Shown here piece after piece: positions 19,706-56,067 of a stretch of 61,266 nucleotides of DNA (position 1 is the first letter of the stretch; every line of letters begins with the position of its first letter). Origin of the DNA: Bacteroidales bacterium (lineage in GTDB: Bacteria; Bacteroidota; Bacteroidia; Bacteroidales; P3). The DNA lies in assembly GCA_009783885.1 (NCBI GenBank), contig WRCN01000012.1, positions 1-61,266 on the forward strand, read 5' to 3'. The notes under the pieces are model-generated. The model did no database searches and had not been told where the DNA came from. It saw only the letters and a program-made list of their open reading frames with translations. The translations under genes and the position numbers were made by a program.

Positions 19706-19757
19706 GTAGGAGCGAGGCATGGTTGCTGAGTAAAATCGAACCATGCCTCGCCCCTAC
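19706..19757. repeat. palindromic repeat of the GTAGGGGCGAGGC family
   Basis: Nineteen-nt arms, GTAGGAGCGAGGCATGGTT (19706-19724) and AACCATGCCTCGCCCCTAC (19739-19757), with one mismatch. It lies between gcvP and the GT2 gene. Confidence 0.85.
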
Positions 19758-31073: not shown

Positions 31074-31102
31074 CAAAGATACAAAAACTTTTCGTATCTT
31101 TG
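31074..31102. promoter_or_regulatory. divergent -7 boxes of the acyltransferase and pyk
   Basis: Minus-strand TATCTTTG (31081-31074) and plus-strand TATCTTTG (31095-31102) face apart with 13 bp between them. The minus-strand box is 4 nt from its ATG (leaderless); the plus-strand leader is 19 nt. Confidence 0.75.
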
Positions 31103-36824: not shown

Positions 36825-38042
36825 ATGAACGTAACTTCCATTCGAAACGATTTTCCAATTTTAAATCAAACCATTAACGGAAAACCCTTGATTTATTTGG
36901 ATAATGCCGCTACAACGCAAAAACCACAAGTAGTCATTGACCGTATTTCGGACTATTACAAAACGATCAACAGCAATGTGCATCGCGGTGTTCACACACT
37001 CAGCCAAAGAGCGACAGAAGCGATGGAGAACGCAAGGATTACCGTTCAAAAGTTTATTAATGCCAAAGAGCATCGTGAAATTGTTTTCACAAAAGGGACT
37101 ACGGAAAGTATTAATTTAGTTGCTCAAACGTTTGCCCAACAATTTTTAAACGAAGGTGATAGTATTCTGATTTCTGCCGTGGAACATCACGCCAATATTG
37201 TGCCTTGGCAACAACTATGCAAACAAAAAAAAGCAAATTTATTGGTTATTCCAATCTTGGAAAACGGAGAATTAGATCTGTCGAACGTCGATGAATTGCT
37301 TTCAAAAAACGTGACACTCCTTGCTATTTCTCATATTTCAAATGTTCTCGGTACCATCAATCCAATTGAATTATTGATTGAAAAAGCGCACAAAAAAAAC
37401 ATTCCCGTATTGATTGATGCTGCTCAAAGTGTAGCCCACGAAACGATTGACGTGCAAAAATTAGACTGTGATTTTTTAGTATTTTCTGGGCATAAAATGT
37501 ATGCTCCAATGGGTATTGGCGTGCTTTACGGAAAAACCGATTGGCTCAACAAACTCCCACCCTACCAATTCGGCGGCGAAATGATTTTGGAGGTGCGTTT
37601 TGAAGAAACTATTTTCAACGAATTGCCGTTCAAATTCGAAACCGGGACACCCAATGTTGAAGGAATTTTAGGACTTGAAACCGCCATTCATTATCTGCAA
37701 AAAATCGGATTGAAACAAATTGCAGAATACGAACACAAATTGTTAACTTATGCCACTCAAAAACTCAACGAACTTTCCGGCATTATTTTTCACGGCATAG
37801 CCAAGCACAAATCTGCTGTTTTGAGTTTCAATTTTCAAGGAATTCACAATTCCGATATTGGTGCAATCCTCGACCAATTGGGTATTGCCGTAAGAACGGG
37901 GCATCACTGCGCTCAGCCGTTGATGGAAAATTTATGTGTTCCGGGAACGGTGCGTGCAAGTTTTGCATTTTACAATACGAAAGAAGAAATTGATATGTTT
38001 ATTGAAGGTGTGAAAATGGCAAAAAAAATGTTGACAATGTAG
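36825..38042 (+). CDS. sufS: cysteine desulfurase, SufS type
   Basis: A 405-residue PLP enzyme that takes sulfur from cysteine for Fe-S cluster assembly. LIYLDNAATTQKPQVVIDRI, the PLP Lys in FLVFSGHKMYAPMGIGVLYG, and the persulfide Cys in VRTGHHCAQPLMENL are group II (SufS/CsdA) features. The usual sufBCD genes are not adjacent. Its TAG stop codon is the TAG within the palindrome GTAGGGGC that follows, so the C-terminus was set by that repeat. Confidence 0.93.
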   Translation: MNVTSIRNDFPILNQTINGKPLIYLDNAATTQKPQVVIDRISDYYKTINSNVHRGVHTLSQRATEAMENARITVQKFINAKEHREIVFTKGTTESINLVAQTFAQQFLNEGDSILISAVEHHANIVPWQQLCKQKKANLLVIPILENGELDLSNVDELLSKNVTLLAISHISNVLGTINPIELLIEKAHKKNIPVLIDAAQSVAHETIDVQKLDCDFLVFSGHKMYAPMGIGVLYGKTDWLNKLPPYQFGGEMILEVRFEETIFNELPFKFETGTPNVEGILGLETAIHYLQKIGLKQIAEYEHKLLTYATQKLNELSGIIFHGIAKHKSAVLSFNFQGIHNSDIGAILDQLGIAVRTGHHCAQPLMENLCVPGTVRASFAFYNTKEEIDMFIEGVKMAKKMLTM

Positions 38043-38065
38043 GGGCGTATTGAATACGCCCCTAC
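38039..38065. repeat. 13-bp perfect palindrome GTAGGGGCGTATT/AATACGCCCCTAC
   Basis: The arms flank one G. It overlaps the last codons of sufS and supplies its TAG stop (38040-38042). It sits 7 bp from the stop of the convergent exonuclease gene and may stop both transcripts. Confidence 0.85.
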
Positions 38066-42563: not shown

Positions 42564-42571
42564 AGTTTTTT

Positions 42572-42606
42572 TTTGCAAAGATACAAAAAAATTGTATCTT
42601 TGCAAA
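42572..42606. promoter_or_regulatory. palindromic divergent promoter of coaD and the beta-propeller gene
   Basis: TTTTGCAAAGATACAA and TTGTATCTTTGCAAAA are inverted copies around five A. The minus-strand -7 box is 42583-42576 and the plus-strand box 42595-42602. The plus-strand box is exactly 4 nt (CAAA) before the ATG, which predicts a leaderless mRNA. Confidence 0.8.
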
Positions 42607-44364
42607 ATGAAAAAACCAATCAGCAGAAACATTGCCATCGTATCGGCAATTTTTATGGTCACATTTTCCATAATGCTTGTAACCAACTATTTTAAAGTTA
42701 GTGGCACAGATCCTTTGCAAACGATTGAAGCTCTAAAACAGGCCAACGAGGAAGTTGGCGAAAATCCGCAATTACAAGAACAAATTCGGGAATTAGATTT
42801 GTTGGCAAGAAGAGCCTATTTTATCAGCATTGGCAGACTTAGATTGGGTGTTGCGATTTTATTGGTGATGGTGATTGTTTTTGTGATCTGTTTACGGATT
42901 TATTTTGCGAAAACTAAAGATATTCCCAACAAGGACCTCGACCCTATTGACGATTGGGTCATCCAATCCCAAACAAGAACCTACATTGTTTGGATTGCAA
43001 GCGGATTGGCGATAAGCGGAATTGTTTTTGCTTTGTTAACTTCGTCATATCTGAAAAAATTAAACACAAAGGGCACAAAGAACACAAAAATGCTTGCTTT
43101 GGATTATTTAACTGCGAATTTTGAAGAAGAAATACAAGCCTTAGAACAGGCAGAATCTGTTGAAACAACAGATGTTACAAACGTATTAGTTGCTATTGAT
43201 ACGCATGAAATATCAAACGTAACACACAGTGGATTTCGAGGAAATAATTCGCTTGGTATAAGCCCTGCAAGGTATATTCCGACATCCTGGGATTTAGCGT
43301 CGGGCAAAACTATTTTGTGGCAAGTTCCAATTCCTCGAAAAGGCTACAATTCGCCCATCATCAGTGGAAACAGAGTTTTCTTTACCGGAGCGGACGAGGA
43401 CATTAGAGAATTGTTTTGCTACGAATTAAGTTCGGGTAAACTACTTTGGAGATTGGAAGCCAAAAACATTCCGGGTTCGCCAAGTGAAGCACCCAAAACA
43501 ACCGATGATACCGGACTTGGCGCGCCAACGGCAGCAACCAACGGCAAAGTGGTATGCGCGATTTTCGGCACAGGCGACGTGATTTGTGCCGATATGAACG
43601 GCAAACAACTTTGGGCAAAAAACCTTGGTGTGCCTGATAATGCTTACGGATTTGCCTCATCGCTGCTAATTTACGGAAATTTATTGATTATTCAATACGA
43701 TAATCGTAATTCGCCAAGAGTTATCGCTTTGGATTTGGCAAACGGCAATGAACGTTGGTCAAGACCGCGTCCCGAGCGTAATCCATCGTGGAGCAGTCCG
43801 ATCTTGGCGATGGTAAATAATCGTCCTCAACTCATATTGATAGGAAATCCGGGCATCACGTCTTACAATCCGAATACCGGAGAACAAAACTGGCGTGTGG
43901 AAGCAATGGCCGGAGAACCTGCTCCGGGTCCCGCTTATGCTAATGGCATTATTTTCGCAGGAACTGAATACGCAACATTAGTCGCCATCAATGCAGCAGA
44001 CGGCACCATACTTTGGAGAAACAATGAAATTCTGCCTGAAATAGCAAGTCCGGTAGCAACACAGGATTTCGTGTTCGTTGCCACATCCTACGGTGTGGTA
44101 GCAAGTTTTGATCCTCAAACCGGACACGTCATAAAATCCATGGAATTGAGTGGGGATTTTAACGCTTCGCCAATCATTGTTGAAGGAAAAATCTATTTGA
44201 TTTGTACCAAAGGAAAGGTGTATATTTTCTCCGCACAACGCGAATTTACGTTAATCAATTCTTTCGAAACTGGTGAGAAAACATTTGCTACGCCCGCGTT
44301 TACAGATAGAAAAATTGTGATTCGAACCGAGAAAAGTATTTATTGTGTGAAAAAATTTGAGTAA
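42607..44364 (+). CDS. membrane-anchored PQQ-like beta-propeller protein
   Basis: 585 residues. Three hydrophobic segments lie near residues 9-27, 78-98 and 122-140, with a Gln/Glu-rich coiled-coil region between the first two. A linker follows, then from about residue 220 a PQQ-like (BamB-type) propeller with repeated blades: SGKTILWQVPIP, SGKLLWRLEA, NGKQLWAKNLG, NGNERWSRP, TGEQNWRVEA and DGTILWRNNE. PQQ-enzyme catalytic residues are not evident, so it is probably a binding or scaffold protein. Its stop overlaps the next ATG by one base (TAATG), so it is made together with the NuoE-NuoF fusion. A repeat-like segment NTKGTKNTK interrupts the linker. Confidence 0.72.
   Translation: MKKPISRNIAIVSAIFMVTFSIMLVTNYFKVSGTDPLQTIEALKQANEEVGENPQLQEQIRELDLLARRAYFISIGRLRLGVAILLVMVIVFVICLRIYFAKTKDIPNKDLDPIDDWVIQSQTRTYIVWIASGLAISGIVFALLTSSYLKKLNTKGTKNTKMLALDYLTANFEEEIQALEQAESVETTDVTNVLVAIDTHEISNVTHSGFRGNNSLGISPARYIPTSWDLASGKTILWQVPIPRKGYNSPIISGNRVFFTGADEDIRELFCYELSSGKLLWRLEAKNIPGSPSEAPKTTDDTGLGAPTAATNGKVVCAIFGTGDVICADMNGKQLWAKNLGVPDNAYGFASSLLIYGNLLIIQYDNRNSPRVIALDLANGNERWSRPRPERNPSWSSPILAMVNNRPQLILIGNPGITSYNPNTGEQNWRVEAMAGEPAPGPAYANGIIFAGTEYATLVAINAADGTILWRNNEILPEIASPVATQDFVFVATSYGVVASFDPQTGHVIKSMELSGDFNASPIIVEGKIYLICTKGKVYIFSAQREFTLINSFETGEKTFATPAFTDRKIVIRTEKSIYCVKKFE
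43063..43089 (+). repeat. in-frame ACACAAAGGGCACAAAGAAC repeat in the propeller gene
   Basis: An A/C/G-only tract related to the dispersed CACAAAGGGCACAAAGAACA sequence seen between genes in many bacteria. Here it encodes NTKGTKNTK just after the third membrane segment, in a linker that would tolerate an insertion. Confidence 0.5.
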
Positions 44365-46751
44365 TGTCCTGTACCTGCAATCCAAATAATAACCTCGATT
44401 TTATTGGTAAAACCGATGAAATTATATTGCAAATCGGAACATCGCGAAGCACGATCATTCCTTTGCTTCAAGCATTACAAAACAAATTTGGCTATTTGCC
44501 GGCTGAGGCTATCGAACGCGTATATGAGAAAACCGAGATCAACCGCGCACAACTCATCAGCGTATCCACATTTTATTCGCAATTTCGACATATTCCTTAC
44601 GGAAAACATTTAATCAAAGTGTGCACCGGAACGGCTTGCCACGTGAAGGGCGCGGGAAATGTGATTGACGCATTTCGTCGTGAATTGAACATGGACGACG
44701 ATAAAATTACCACCAACGATGAGTTGTTTTCAATCGAAAAAATCGCCTGTTTGGGTTGCTGTTCGCTCGCACCCGTAGTGCAAATTGATGAAAAAATTTA
44801 CGGCCACGTGCAATCCGGAAAAGTTGGTGAAATTATCAACGAATTTTTATTCGAAACCACCGTAGGGGCGGGGTCTACCCGCCCTAAAAAATCCCAACGC
44901 AAAATCGCAGGAGAAATCCGAATAGGAATGGGCTCATGCTGCCAAGCAAGCGGTTCATCCGGCATTCTGGAAGAACTGAAGAAAGCAGAACGCGAATTAG
45001 GAATTGACGTTCATATCAAAATGGTAGGCTGTGTCGGTGTTTGCAGCAAAGTGCCGTTGATTGATGTGGTGTTGCCCGATGGATCTATTGAACGTTACCC
45101 TAACGTGAAGCCCTCTGAAATCAAGGAAATCTTGCATCATCATTTTGAACCGGAAAGTTATTTCAAACGTTGGAAAAACAAATTGCTCAACCACGTTGAC
45201 ACATTTCACACCGATACCACGTGGGACAACGTGATTTGGAAACCCGAAAACGAACGTACAGGTGTAATTGACAGTTTCCTTTCCGAACAAAAACACATTT
45301 CAACCGAAGGCTACGGCTTCCTTGCACCATTGAACATCGACGAATATATTACGCAAAACGGTTTTGAAGCATTGAAAAAAACACTTTCAACAAAACCGAA
45401 CGAAATTGTCGAAAGTATCTTGAATAGCGGTATTCGCGGACGCGGCGGCGGCGGTTTCCCTTCCGGAAAAAAATGGAAAATAACGGCCAATTCCGCAACG
45501 ACAGAAAAATATGTGATTTGCAACGGCGACGAAGGCGATCCGGGTGCATTTATGGATCGCATGATACTCGAATCGTATCCATTTCGTGTGATCGAAGGCA
45601 TGATTATCGCAGGTTTTGCAGTGAGTGCCCAAAAAGGGATTTTTTATATTCGTGCCGAATATCCGTTGGCAGTTGAACGAATCCGTAAGGCGATTGAGAT
45701 TTGTCGTGAACGAAATTTGCTTGGTGAAAACATTTTGGGAACTGATTTTTCGTTCGATATTAGCATTTTTGAAGGTGCTGGTGCATTTGTTTGTGGAGAG
45801 GAAACTGCGCTGATTGCTTCTATCGAAGGCAAGCGTGGCTTTCCGAAACAACGTCCGCCCTACCCTGCTGTTGAAGGCTTGAACAGCTGTCCGACTTTGG
45901 TCAATAATGTGGAAACATTGAGCCAAATTCCCTACATCATCAGAAATGGCGCAGAACACTATGCAAAAATCGGAACAGAAAAAAGCAAAGGAACAAAAGT
46001 GTTCGCTTTGGCAGGAAAAATTCGTCACGGCGGATTGATTGAAGTGCCGATGGGCATTACGTTGAATCAAATTGTGAACAACATTGGTGGCGGTGTTGTA
46101 GAGACGCACGGCCGTGCGTCTCTACTGAAAGCCATTCAAATTGGCGGACCTTCAGGAGGTTGTATTCCCGCACATTTGTGCGATGTTGAAGTGGATTTTG
46201 ATTCGTTTTCGCAGATGGGTGCGATGATGGGTTCAGGCGGTTTGGTGGTGTTGAGCGAGAATGATTGCATGGTGGATGTAGCAAGATATTTCTTGAGTTT
46301 TACGTGTGAGGAATCGTGCGGAAAATGCACATTTTGTCGCGTTGGAATTCGACGAATGTTGGATATTTTAGATAAAATTTGTAGCGGCCAAGCCGAAATG
46401 GGCGATATTGACAAATTGGAGCAACTTGCGTTGAATGTCAAAAAAACATCGCTTTGCGGATTAGGCAAAACCACGCCAAATCCCGTTCTCACAACATTGA
46501 AATATTTTCGCAACGAATACGAGGAACACATCAACGGCTTATGCAAAACTGGAACGTGCAAAGATATGATCAGCTATGTAATTACCGAAAACTGCGTTGG
46601 TTGCACTAAATGCGCCAAAGCCTGTCCTGTGGATGCCATCCCCTACACACCTTACGAAGTACACACAATTGATATTGAAAAATGTGTCAAATGCGGACTT
46701 TGTGTCGACGAGTGCGCGTTTGATGCAATACGGAAAGTTCCGATACAGTAA
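44364..46751 (+). CDS. fused NuoE-NuoF-ferredoxin flavoprotein (HydB/HndC-like NAD(P)H dehydrogenase)
   Basis: 795 residues. Domain order: NuoE-like [2Fe-2S] thioredoxin fold (ligands C87, C92, C129, C133); a second thioredoxin-like [2Fe-2S] domain (C192/C193, C223, C227); NuoF core with RGRGGGGFPSGKKW, NGDEGDPGAFMDR (NADH site) and GAGAFVCGEETALI (FMN/NADH); SLBB segment; [4Fe-4S] site ESCGKCTFCRVG; and a C-terminal 2[4Fe-4S] ferredoxin domain (CVGCTKCAKACP, CVKCGLCVDECA). This is the HydC+HydB architecture of electron-bifurcating hydrogenases and related NAD(P)H dehydrogenases. No HydA or other catalytic partner is adjacent. Two GC-rich palindromes are read in frame. Soluble, cytoplasmic. 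Confidence 0.88.
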   Translation: MSCTCNPNNNLDFIGKTDEIILQIGTSRSTIIPLLQALQNKFGYLPAEAIERVYEKTEINRAQLISVSTFYSQFRHIPYGKHLIKVCTGTACHVKGAGNVIDAFRRELNMDDDKITTNDELFSIEKIACLGCCSLAPVVQIDEKIYGHVQSGKVGEIINEFLFETTVGAGSTRPKKSQRKIAGEIRIGMGSCCQASGSSGILEELKKAERELGIDVHIKMVGCVGVCSKVPLIDVVLPDGSIERYPNVKPSEIKEILHHHFEPESYFKRWKNKLLNHVDTFHTDTTWDNVIWKPENERTGVIDSFLSEQKHISTEGYGFLAPLNIDEYITQNGFEALKKTLSTKPNEIVESILNSGIRGRGGGGFPSGKKWKITANSATTEKYVICNGDEGDPGAFMDRMILESYPFRVIEGMIIAGFAVSAQKGIFYIRAEYPLAVERIRKAIEICRERNLLGENILGTDFSFDISIFEGAGAFVCGEETALIASIEGKRGFPKQRPPYPAVEGLNSCPTLVNNVETLSQIPYIIRNGAEHYAKIGTEKSKGTKVFALAGKIRHGGLIEVPMGITLNQIVNNIGGGVVETHGRASLLKAIQIGGPSGGCIPAHLCDVEVDFDSFSQMGAMMGSGGLVVLSENDCMVDVARYFLSFTCEESCGKCTFCRVGIRRMLDILDKICSGQAEMGDIDKLEQLALNVKKTSLCGLGKTTPNPVLTTLKYFRNEYEEHINGLCKTGTCKDMISYVITENCVGCTKCAKACPVDAIPYTPYEVHTIDIEKCVKCGLCVDECAFDAIRKVPIQ
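44862..44886. repeat. in-frame GTAGGGGCGGG palindrome in the NuoE-NuoF gene
   Basis: GTAGGGGCGGG and CCCGCCCTA arms with a short centre, one base missing in the right arm. It encodes VGAGSTRPK in the linker between the NuoE-like and second [2Fe-2S] domains. It belongs to the same family as the intergenic copies at 38.04 and 56.00 kb. Confidence 0.8.
46098..46125. repeat. in-frame 28-bp perfect palindrome in the NuoE-NuoF gene
   Basis: GTAGAGACGCACGG followed directly by its exact complement CCGTGCGTCTCTAC. It encodes ETHGRASL within the SLBB segment, between IGGGVV and KAIQIGGPSGG, where homologues as I know them have a shorter stretch. Confidence 0.9.
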
Positions 46752-55999: not shown

Positions 56000-56024
56000 G
56001 TAGGGGTGAGGCACGCCTCGCCCC
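56000..56024. repeat. GTAGGGGTGAGGC/GCCTCGCCCC palindrome
   Basis: Near-perfect arms with one G-T type mismatch, lying 10 bp after the Omp28-like gene and 43 bp before efp. It lacks a T run. Confidence 0.75.
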
Positions 56025-56067
56025 AAATTAACAACTAAACGATTAAACAACTAATACAGCAAAATTT

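Follow-up and report, generated by a model that had tools for sequence, protein, structure and literature searches.

We analysed a 61,266-nucleotide stretch of a Bacteroidales genome (contig WRCN01000012.1 of assembly GCA_009783885.1; hereafter the window), in which one gene on the forward strand at 44364–46751 (P0001) encodes a NuoE-NuoF-type fusion flavoprotein (hereafter NuoEF) and carries two short palindromic elements that are read in frame. Evaluating the open reading frame (ORF) list, the translation and Pfam, we describe the product as a 795-aa protein with 2Fe-2S_thioredx at aa 18–161 followed by Complex1_51K, NADH_4Fe-4S and Fer4, its nearest solved structure being NfnB (9n5u_B), with the NfnB-like part beginning at aa 185. 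The first element (44862–44884, forward strand) is a 23-bp single-foot repetitive extragenic palindrome (REP), GTAGGGGCGGGGTCTACCCGCCC, consisting of a GTAG foot and a hairpin; it reads VGAGSTRP and lies in the linker between the N-terminal NuoE-like domain and the NuoF-like (NfnB-like) part, in agreement with an initial annotation made from sequence that had assigned its peptide to an interdomain linker. The second (46098–46125) is a double-foot REP, GTAGAGACGCACGGCCGTGCGTCTCTAC, with GTAG at one end and CTAC at the other, forming a perfect 14 + 14 = 28-bp palindrome that reads VETHGRASL and sits in a loop of the NuoF part. The initial annotation had already seen two in-frame palindromes in one fused gene, an observation that held and that proved part of a larger phenomenon than noted; in its details, the first element remains an in-frame hairpin but is not a perfect two-ended palindrome, and the second remains a perfect 28-bp palindrome whose peptide, given as ETHGRASL, lacked its leading V.

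The loop at the VETHGRASL site has 9 residues here, as compared with 5 residues in 90 of 119 listed homologues (9 residues in 2, 14 in 1, and 26 unparsed), which bears out the earlier remark that family members have about four fewer residues. This assignment to a loop rests on alignments because the AlphaFold model of NuoEF (mean pLDDT 59.9) was too poor for placing peptides and was not used. A peptide scan of the window ORFs of at least 120 aa revealed the two peptides of the flavoprotein gene as the only REP-type peptides.

Searching the genome of origin (G000; 2.05 Mb in 60 contigs, 98% complete), we found both elements to belong to dispersed families. The 28-mer type (GTAGAGACGC..GCGTCTCTAC) has 13 copies, with the identical 28-mer at 10 places, while a wider strict two-ended pattern (GTAGRGRCG..CGYCYCTAC) occurs at 35 places and the single-foot pattern of the 44862–44884 element at 29, each reversed control pattern occurring at 0. 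Such elements, as 28-bp double-foot and 23-bp single-foot palindromes with a GTAG foot, fall within the 20–40 bp of GTAG REPs and share with them a genomic repetition well above chance. That the palindromes are chance GC-rich hairpins in coding sequence is refuted by these controls and by the half site of the 46098–46125 element (GTAGAGACGC), which gave 0 matches in 100 dinucleotide-preserving shuffles; we found no point in favor of such an origin, which we regard as extremely improbable.

The families extend well beyond this genome. Across the five genomes of the genus (G000 and four sister species, G001–G004), the wide pattern occurs 35, 43, 87, 40 and 25 times, and a survey of the phylum recovered it in 119 of 395 genomes, where the top other genome in the sample held 42 copies compared with 35 in our own. 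The exact 28-mer was present in at least 112 stretches in a scan of species genomes, its carriers among the matches listed (80 titled stretches) being mostly Bacteroidota, with other bin labels among those matches (Spirochaetales, Chitinivibrionales, Desulfatirhabdium, Desulfamplus, FCPU426, Phycisphaerae, Omnitrophica) that may reflect contamination. The carriers of the 28-mer include Aequorivita lipolytica and Anaerophaga thermohalophila, whose four copies lie in an ORF in a single case, that of Anaerophaga. A stretch of G001 matches WQWA01 (Bacteroidales bacterium Emb289P1bin57) without a difference over 2201 bp, as does one of G002 for JAIRRI01 (Bacteroidales bacterium Crp329_bin6); both records are probably of insect-gut origin.

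We then compared the same sites in relatives at 33 places, comprising 10 sites of our own genome (8 coding), 22 of its relatives, and NuoEF. The nearest NuoEF relatives (91% and 86% identical, in G002 and G003) have EKGEK in place of VETHGRASL, such that 28 bp stand where the relatives have 16 nt (net +12), and the same 28 bp for 16 nt is seen in all of the cleanest comparisons (NuoEF, L365/L415, and FolC of G001). At this second NuoEF site, G001 and G004 possess nine-residue peptides from decayed-looking copies, and in two other homologues the same loop holds REP-like peptides of their own (P0132, IGGGVDGGGV-VETGHALSL-LKAVQ; P0141, IGGGV-VETQRATSL-LKAVQ). In the NuoEF linker, P0135 and P0171 have ETQRIAS peptides and P0136 a variant that differs by one residue, while G001 and G004 carry an extra in-frame REP, with differing cores, at yet another NuoEF site. 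The alignment with close homologues that the initial annotation had proposed thus finds the palindrome peptides absent or different there, and its suggestion of a recently mobile element family fits both the widespread, dispersed copies and the differences between sister species at the same sites. Neither outcome that it had named as refuting was seen, since the nearest relatives do not share VETHGRASL and the palindromes are far from confined to this gene.

Over the whole set, different REPs occupy the same loop in different species at 15 of the 33 sites (L002, L007, L010, L012, L079, L282, L326, L327, L328, L334, L335, L336, L377, L378 and NuoEF, with L282 and L328 scored in part from the peptide). 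At the remaining 18 sites the relatives share the REP, carry it in decayed form or have none, or the sequence is unassignable. At the LeuRS site, for example, the double-foot REP of G002 has as its counterpart in both G000 and G004 an inverted single-foot pair, and all three genomes share the left junction AATATCT|GTAG. Flanks of 86 GAGACG copies from the five genomes have a pyrimidine before the element in 79 and a purine after it in 72, a bias that could belong to the element itself or reflect a preference for certain targets, and direct duplications of 1–7 nt beside these 86 copies were at the level of shuffled flanks, with none above it. Ordinary cut-and-paste transposition is argued against by the exchange of 16 nt for 28 in three clean cases together with the lack of target duplication. 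Taken together, the sister-species comparison supports a probable recent mobility of both palindromes.

The comparisons also bear on an origin without dispersal, in which quasi-palindrome template switching at replication forks would create the palindromes in place or perfect them there. Both arms of the core change together at the same site (G001 ATAATTAT, G004 ATTGCAAT), and the cores stay largely symmetric while changing, with 60 of 88 perfect, 27 with one mismatch and 1 with two. However, the identical 28-mer at 10 places in one genome and in so many stretches elsewhere needs copying from a shared source, and we consider template switching very unlikely as the origin of the elements, though it may act as a correction step.

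The KdtA gene (L001; G000:C2:1333-4360) contains one intact 28-mer and a decayed-looking second copy (VIETYGRVSL) that is intact in G002 (VETHGRASL). A nucleotidyltransferase loop (L302) has CTTCGGCTACGCTCAGCGACC in G004 where others have a REP, which may be another in-frame repeat family, and PRKRES- and YKSAP-like peptides are present in other loops.

We evaluated the genome for REP-associated tyrosine transposases (RAYTs). PF01797 (Y1_Tnp) was set aside as a finder of these genes, having no match in our genome although three RAYT genes are present; of its matches within the genus, the one inspected (L085) shows a Y..Q..HH motif resembling that of subclass 1.2, and none of 20 PF01797-match loci inspected had strict REPs. 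A search with an alignment of 19 RAYT homologues (A1) instead gave matches in 30 of 81 genomes, revealed the three genes of our own genome (on contigs C4, C10 and C24), and found no RAYT relatives in viral contigs. Each of the three has a REP in frame between its HUH and Y motifs. The C4 gene holds two identical copies of the 28-mer, one in each open frame (CRDARPCVS, and VETHGRASL as in NuoEF), the C10 gene holds the single-foot REP as an inverted pair reading VGAGFARP...GRADPAPT, and the C24 gene contains a third, double-foot REP type. Both NuoEF palindromes are therefore matched by a relative, identical in the case of the 28-mer, within one of the genome's own RAYT genes, and all three genes show the pairing of RAYT and cognate REP, in or beside the gene, that is expected of GTAG REPs. 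NCBIfam REP_Tyr_transpos matched C4 and C10 at E 1e-17 (64 and 63 bits, below the model cut-off of 80), and C10 (NHFH, WQ, YIINNP) and C24 (NHVH, WQ, YIINNP) both fit the motifs of subclass 2.4 (NH[IFV]H, WQ, YIxNNP). A REP inside a gene would also travel along with that gene on transfer.

A maximum-likelihood tree of 38 of the 48 RAYT ORFs found (10 shorter than 150 aa were left out) connected RAYT clades to REP types. All 15 RAYTs that have the exact 28-mer within the gene or next to it group together as one clade (support 100/99; 0 of 500 shuffles gave so low a value), and because many of these rows were collected for holding the 28-mer, it is their falling into a single clade that is the informative point. 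The branch that separates the 20 GTAGAGAC RAYTs from the 7 GTAGGGGC RAYTs has support of 99/96, and 11 of the 38 have no double-foot REP. Further support for the pairing comes from 81 genomes, where an A1-type RAYT is present in 12 of 12 with at least 5 palindromes versus 18 of 69 others (p=1.2e-6), or in 7 of 7 versus 18 of 69 with the genus excluded (p=2e-4), before any correction for shared ancestry.

These genes bear directly on the idea that the palindromes are miniature inverted-repeat transposable elements (MITEs) or elements akin to the Rickettsia palindromic elements (RPEs), moved by a DDE or other transposase rather than by RAYTs. The initial annotation had been reminded of RPEs, and the likeness in behavior is real, as passages of PMC10969869 describe RPEs inserting in frame into unrelated genes and adding peptides to many unrelated proteins. 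Kinship is another matter, and we rejected RPE membership: the same passages give RPEs as ~150 bp, in Rickettsia, and state no RAYT link (PMC10969869), whereas the elements here are GTAG REPs of 23–28 bp, encoding 8–9 aa, in a genome with RAYTs, and PMC3733652, in its part on these repeats, equates RPE-4 and RPE-6 with CGTC rather than GTAG repeats. The RAYTs of our genome hold the same palindromes, RAYT clades match REP type, the elements have no interior, and the flanks show no target-site duplication, the mark of MITEs, above the shuffled level, such that we find movement by another transposase distinctly unlikely.

Where the copies lie relative to genes differed sharply by type. All 13 copies of the 28-mer type in our genome fall in ORFs of at least 100 aa, and 11 of the 13 are coding after curation, in genes for a RAYT (two copies), KdtA, a FolC-like Mur ligase, a PQQ-repeat protein, a DUF2520 protein, a TPR protein, a nucleotidyltransferase, an AcrB-family pump, an FtsX-domain protein and NuoEF. 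Two were rejected as coding copies, L006 starting 18 codons before its ORF end, at a gene border, and L009 occupying codons 14–23, upstream of an EF-G match that starts at codon 36. Of the remaining 22 strict double-foot copies, which are almost all of GTAGGGGCG type, 3 are in ORFs of at least 150 aa and 1 is coding by curation (in a cytochrome c assembly protein), giving coding fractions of 11/13 versus 1/22 (p=2e-6), or 11/14 versus 1/21 (p=9e-6) with one GTAGAGACGTT copy reassigned to the 28-mer class. ORFs of at least 150 aa hold 16 of the 29 single-foot copies. By the same length threshold, GAGACG-type copies in the sister species were inside ORFs in 17 of 20 cases in G001, 8 of 8 in G004, 23 of 34 examined (of 39) in G002 and 6 of 13 in G003. 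The description of the palindromes in the initial annotation as a kind otherwise found between genes here stands for the GTAGGGGCG type alone, the 28-mer type having a single copy in the window. A mainly extragenic position, which in the literature is a tendency of REPs rather than a strict definition, is followed by the other double-foot copies and not by the 28-mer type or the single-foot copies.

An alternative view is that the peptides are kept for function, VETHGRASL-type loops being a domesticated linker or recognition tag under protein-level selection. Among 65 in-gene copies in the five genomes, 56 are read in frame 0 (VETxxxASL) and 9 in frame 1 although both frames are open (the third holds a stop), a ratio that includes many orthologous copies and hence copies that are not independent. 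RAYT genes also retain such peptides, a VGADLRVCP-like stretch being present in all 19 aligned homologues and exact in 14. Against this view, however, the loop in question lacks the peptide in sister species or holds an unrelated one encoded by another REP, decayed copies exist, and the hosts, which in the sister species include LeuRS, ArgRS, DNA polymerase I, a PcrA-type helicase, HemW and MurD alongside the FolC-like and AcrB-type proteins, possess no evident shared theme. We therefore consider a retained function unlikely.

We interpret both palindromes, with considerable confidence, as REPs within the flavoprotein gene that were likely moved there by the genome's own RAYTs, which carry copies of the same families, and that are likely tolerated as loop-located and frame-keeping. 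Mechanistically, a HUH/Tyr RAYT would recognise the single-stranded REP hairpin via the GTAG foot, nick it and join it to DNA at another place, in keeping with TnpA_REP proteins of the groups tested, for which the relevant part of PMC8266576 describes recognition of single-stranded REP hairpins, GTAG dependence of varying degree and cleavage at CT. The C4 and C10 RAYTs would thus copy or move their own REPs to new places, often replacing host nucleotides, with insertion removing a variable stretch of target DNA. Within genes, survivors would be those events that add or remove a net number of nucleotides divisible by three, selection keeping the in-frame events in loops, and REPs arriving later at a loop would displace or overwrite those already there.

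Several observations weigh against this interpretation. No transposition, excision intermediate or real-time insertion was observed, and we infer the movement of REPs from sequence comparison. The decayed-looking NuoEF copies of G001 and G004 exist although the closer G002 and G003 have no copy, a distribution that needs loss or a second insertion, and at shared sites other than LeuRS the boundaries shift by a few codons, such that repeated insertion and in-place replacement are indistinguishable. The in-gene bias is uneven, with 7 of 13 GAGACG copies in G003 and 11 of 34 in G002 lying outside ORFs of at least 150 aa, in counts that themselves take in unverified ORFs. Exact 28-mers in the stretches from other organisms (at least 112) fall in ORFs of at least 100 aa in only 58 of 120 cases and of at least 150 aa in only 44 of 120, at least 14 of the in-ORF 28-mers in these stretches being accounted for by RAYTs recognised by motif, and the strong bias is therefore a property of this genus. 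On the side of the transposases, C4 and C10 have no Pfam match at 1e-3, and C4 (NHLH, WQ, YIIENP) is a near miss to the subclass 2.4 motifs as given in the part of PMC6006769 on that subclass (NH[IFV]H, YIxNNP). Lastly, the figures on A1-type RAYTs in palindrome-rich genomes ignore shared ancestry.

Building on the interpretation of RAYT-moved REPs, a wider and more speculative possibility is a genus-wide exchange of peptide cassettes. RAYTs might use resident in-gene REPs as landing and conversion sites, such that REPs are swapped at fixed surface loops of core proteins, a double-foot REP for an inverted pair or one core for a different one, and the loop peptides of many proteins change together with the dominant REP of a species. 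We put this forward tentatively, as something that may hold but that we would not expect to.

Much of this has precedent. GTAG REPs, double-foot REPs and in-gene or in-frame REP insertions are already published, in the relevant parts of PMC3733652 and PMC6006769. The closest likeness is to TnpA_REP subclass 2.4 (RAYT group 4) of Cyanobacteria and Bacteroidetes, which the latter describes with double-foot REPs, whose two ends are GT[AG]G and its complement, and with REPs inserted in frame into the transposase's own gene; here, in contrast to that account, one double-foot family lies mainly inside other, housekeeping genes across most of a genus (PMC6006769). The GTAG REPs of PMC3733652 are similarly palindromes of 20–40 bp associated with RAYTs, the TAG of GTAG may serve as a stop codon, and some are in frame in genes, including DNA polymerase I and a UvrD/REP helicase, but the GTAG repeats of its survey are listed for Proteobacteria, Cyanobacteria, Chloroflexi and the PVC group, with Bacteroidetes not among them, and most REPs there are intergenic. 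Our single-foot REPs also resemble REPINs in occurring as inverted pairs, also inside genes (LeuRS, the C10 RAYT), and differ in that the LeuRS pair of two species occupies the place of a double-foot REP in a third with an identical left junction. Predominance inside housekeeping genes and loop-by-loop exchange appear to be new: in the open-licence PMC literature we found no report of a mainly in-gene REP type within a genus of Bacteroidota, nor of one REP being exchanged for another in orthologous loops, the nearest, in the part of PMC3733652 on recB, being different REPs at about the same site of that gene in two Xanthomonas species.

REPs are usually treated as extragenic. A double-foot type that, in four of the five genomes of this genus, is mostly in genes presents a natural repeated experiment on how the loops of proteins accept foreign peptides. 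Its likely transposase is recognisable by the same palindrome in the transposase's own gene, and together they form a concrete RAYT-REP pair from Bacteroidota for testing both REP movement and the overwriting of resident REPs.

The window contains further REP-like elements outside NuoEF. An intergenic double-foot REP of GTAGGGGCG type at 38039–38065 supplies, through its GTAG, the TAG stop codon of a 405-aa ORF (36825–38042), an inverted pair resembling a REP dimer (GTAGGAGCGAGGCATGG ... CCATGCCTCGCCCCTAC) lies at 19706–19757 in intergenic sequence or at an ORF edge, and an imperfect REP-like hairpin (GTAGGGGTGAGGCACGCCTCGCCCC) is on the forward strand at 56000–56027. Inverted repeats of a different, TTTGCAAAGATAC type occur at 1551–1598, 31074–31102 and 42571–42607, which by their motif may be back-to-back Bacteroidota promoters.

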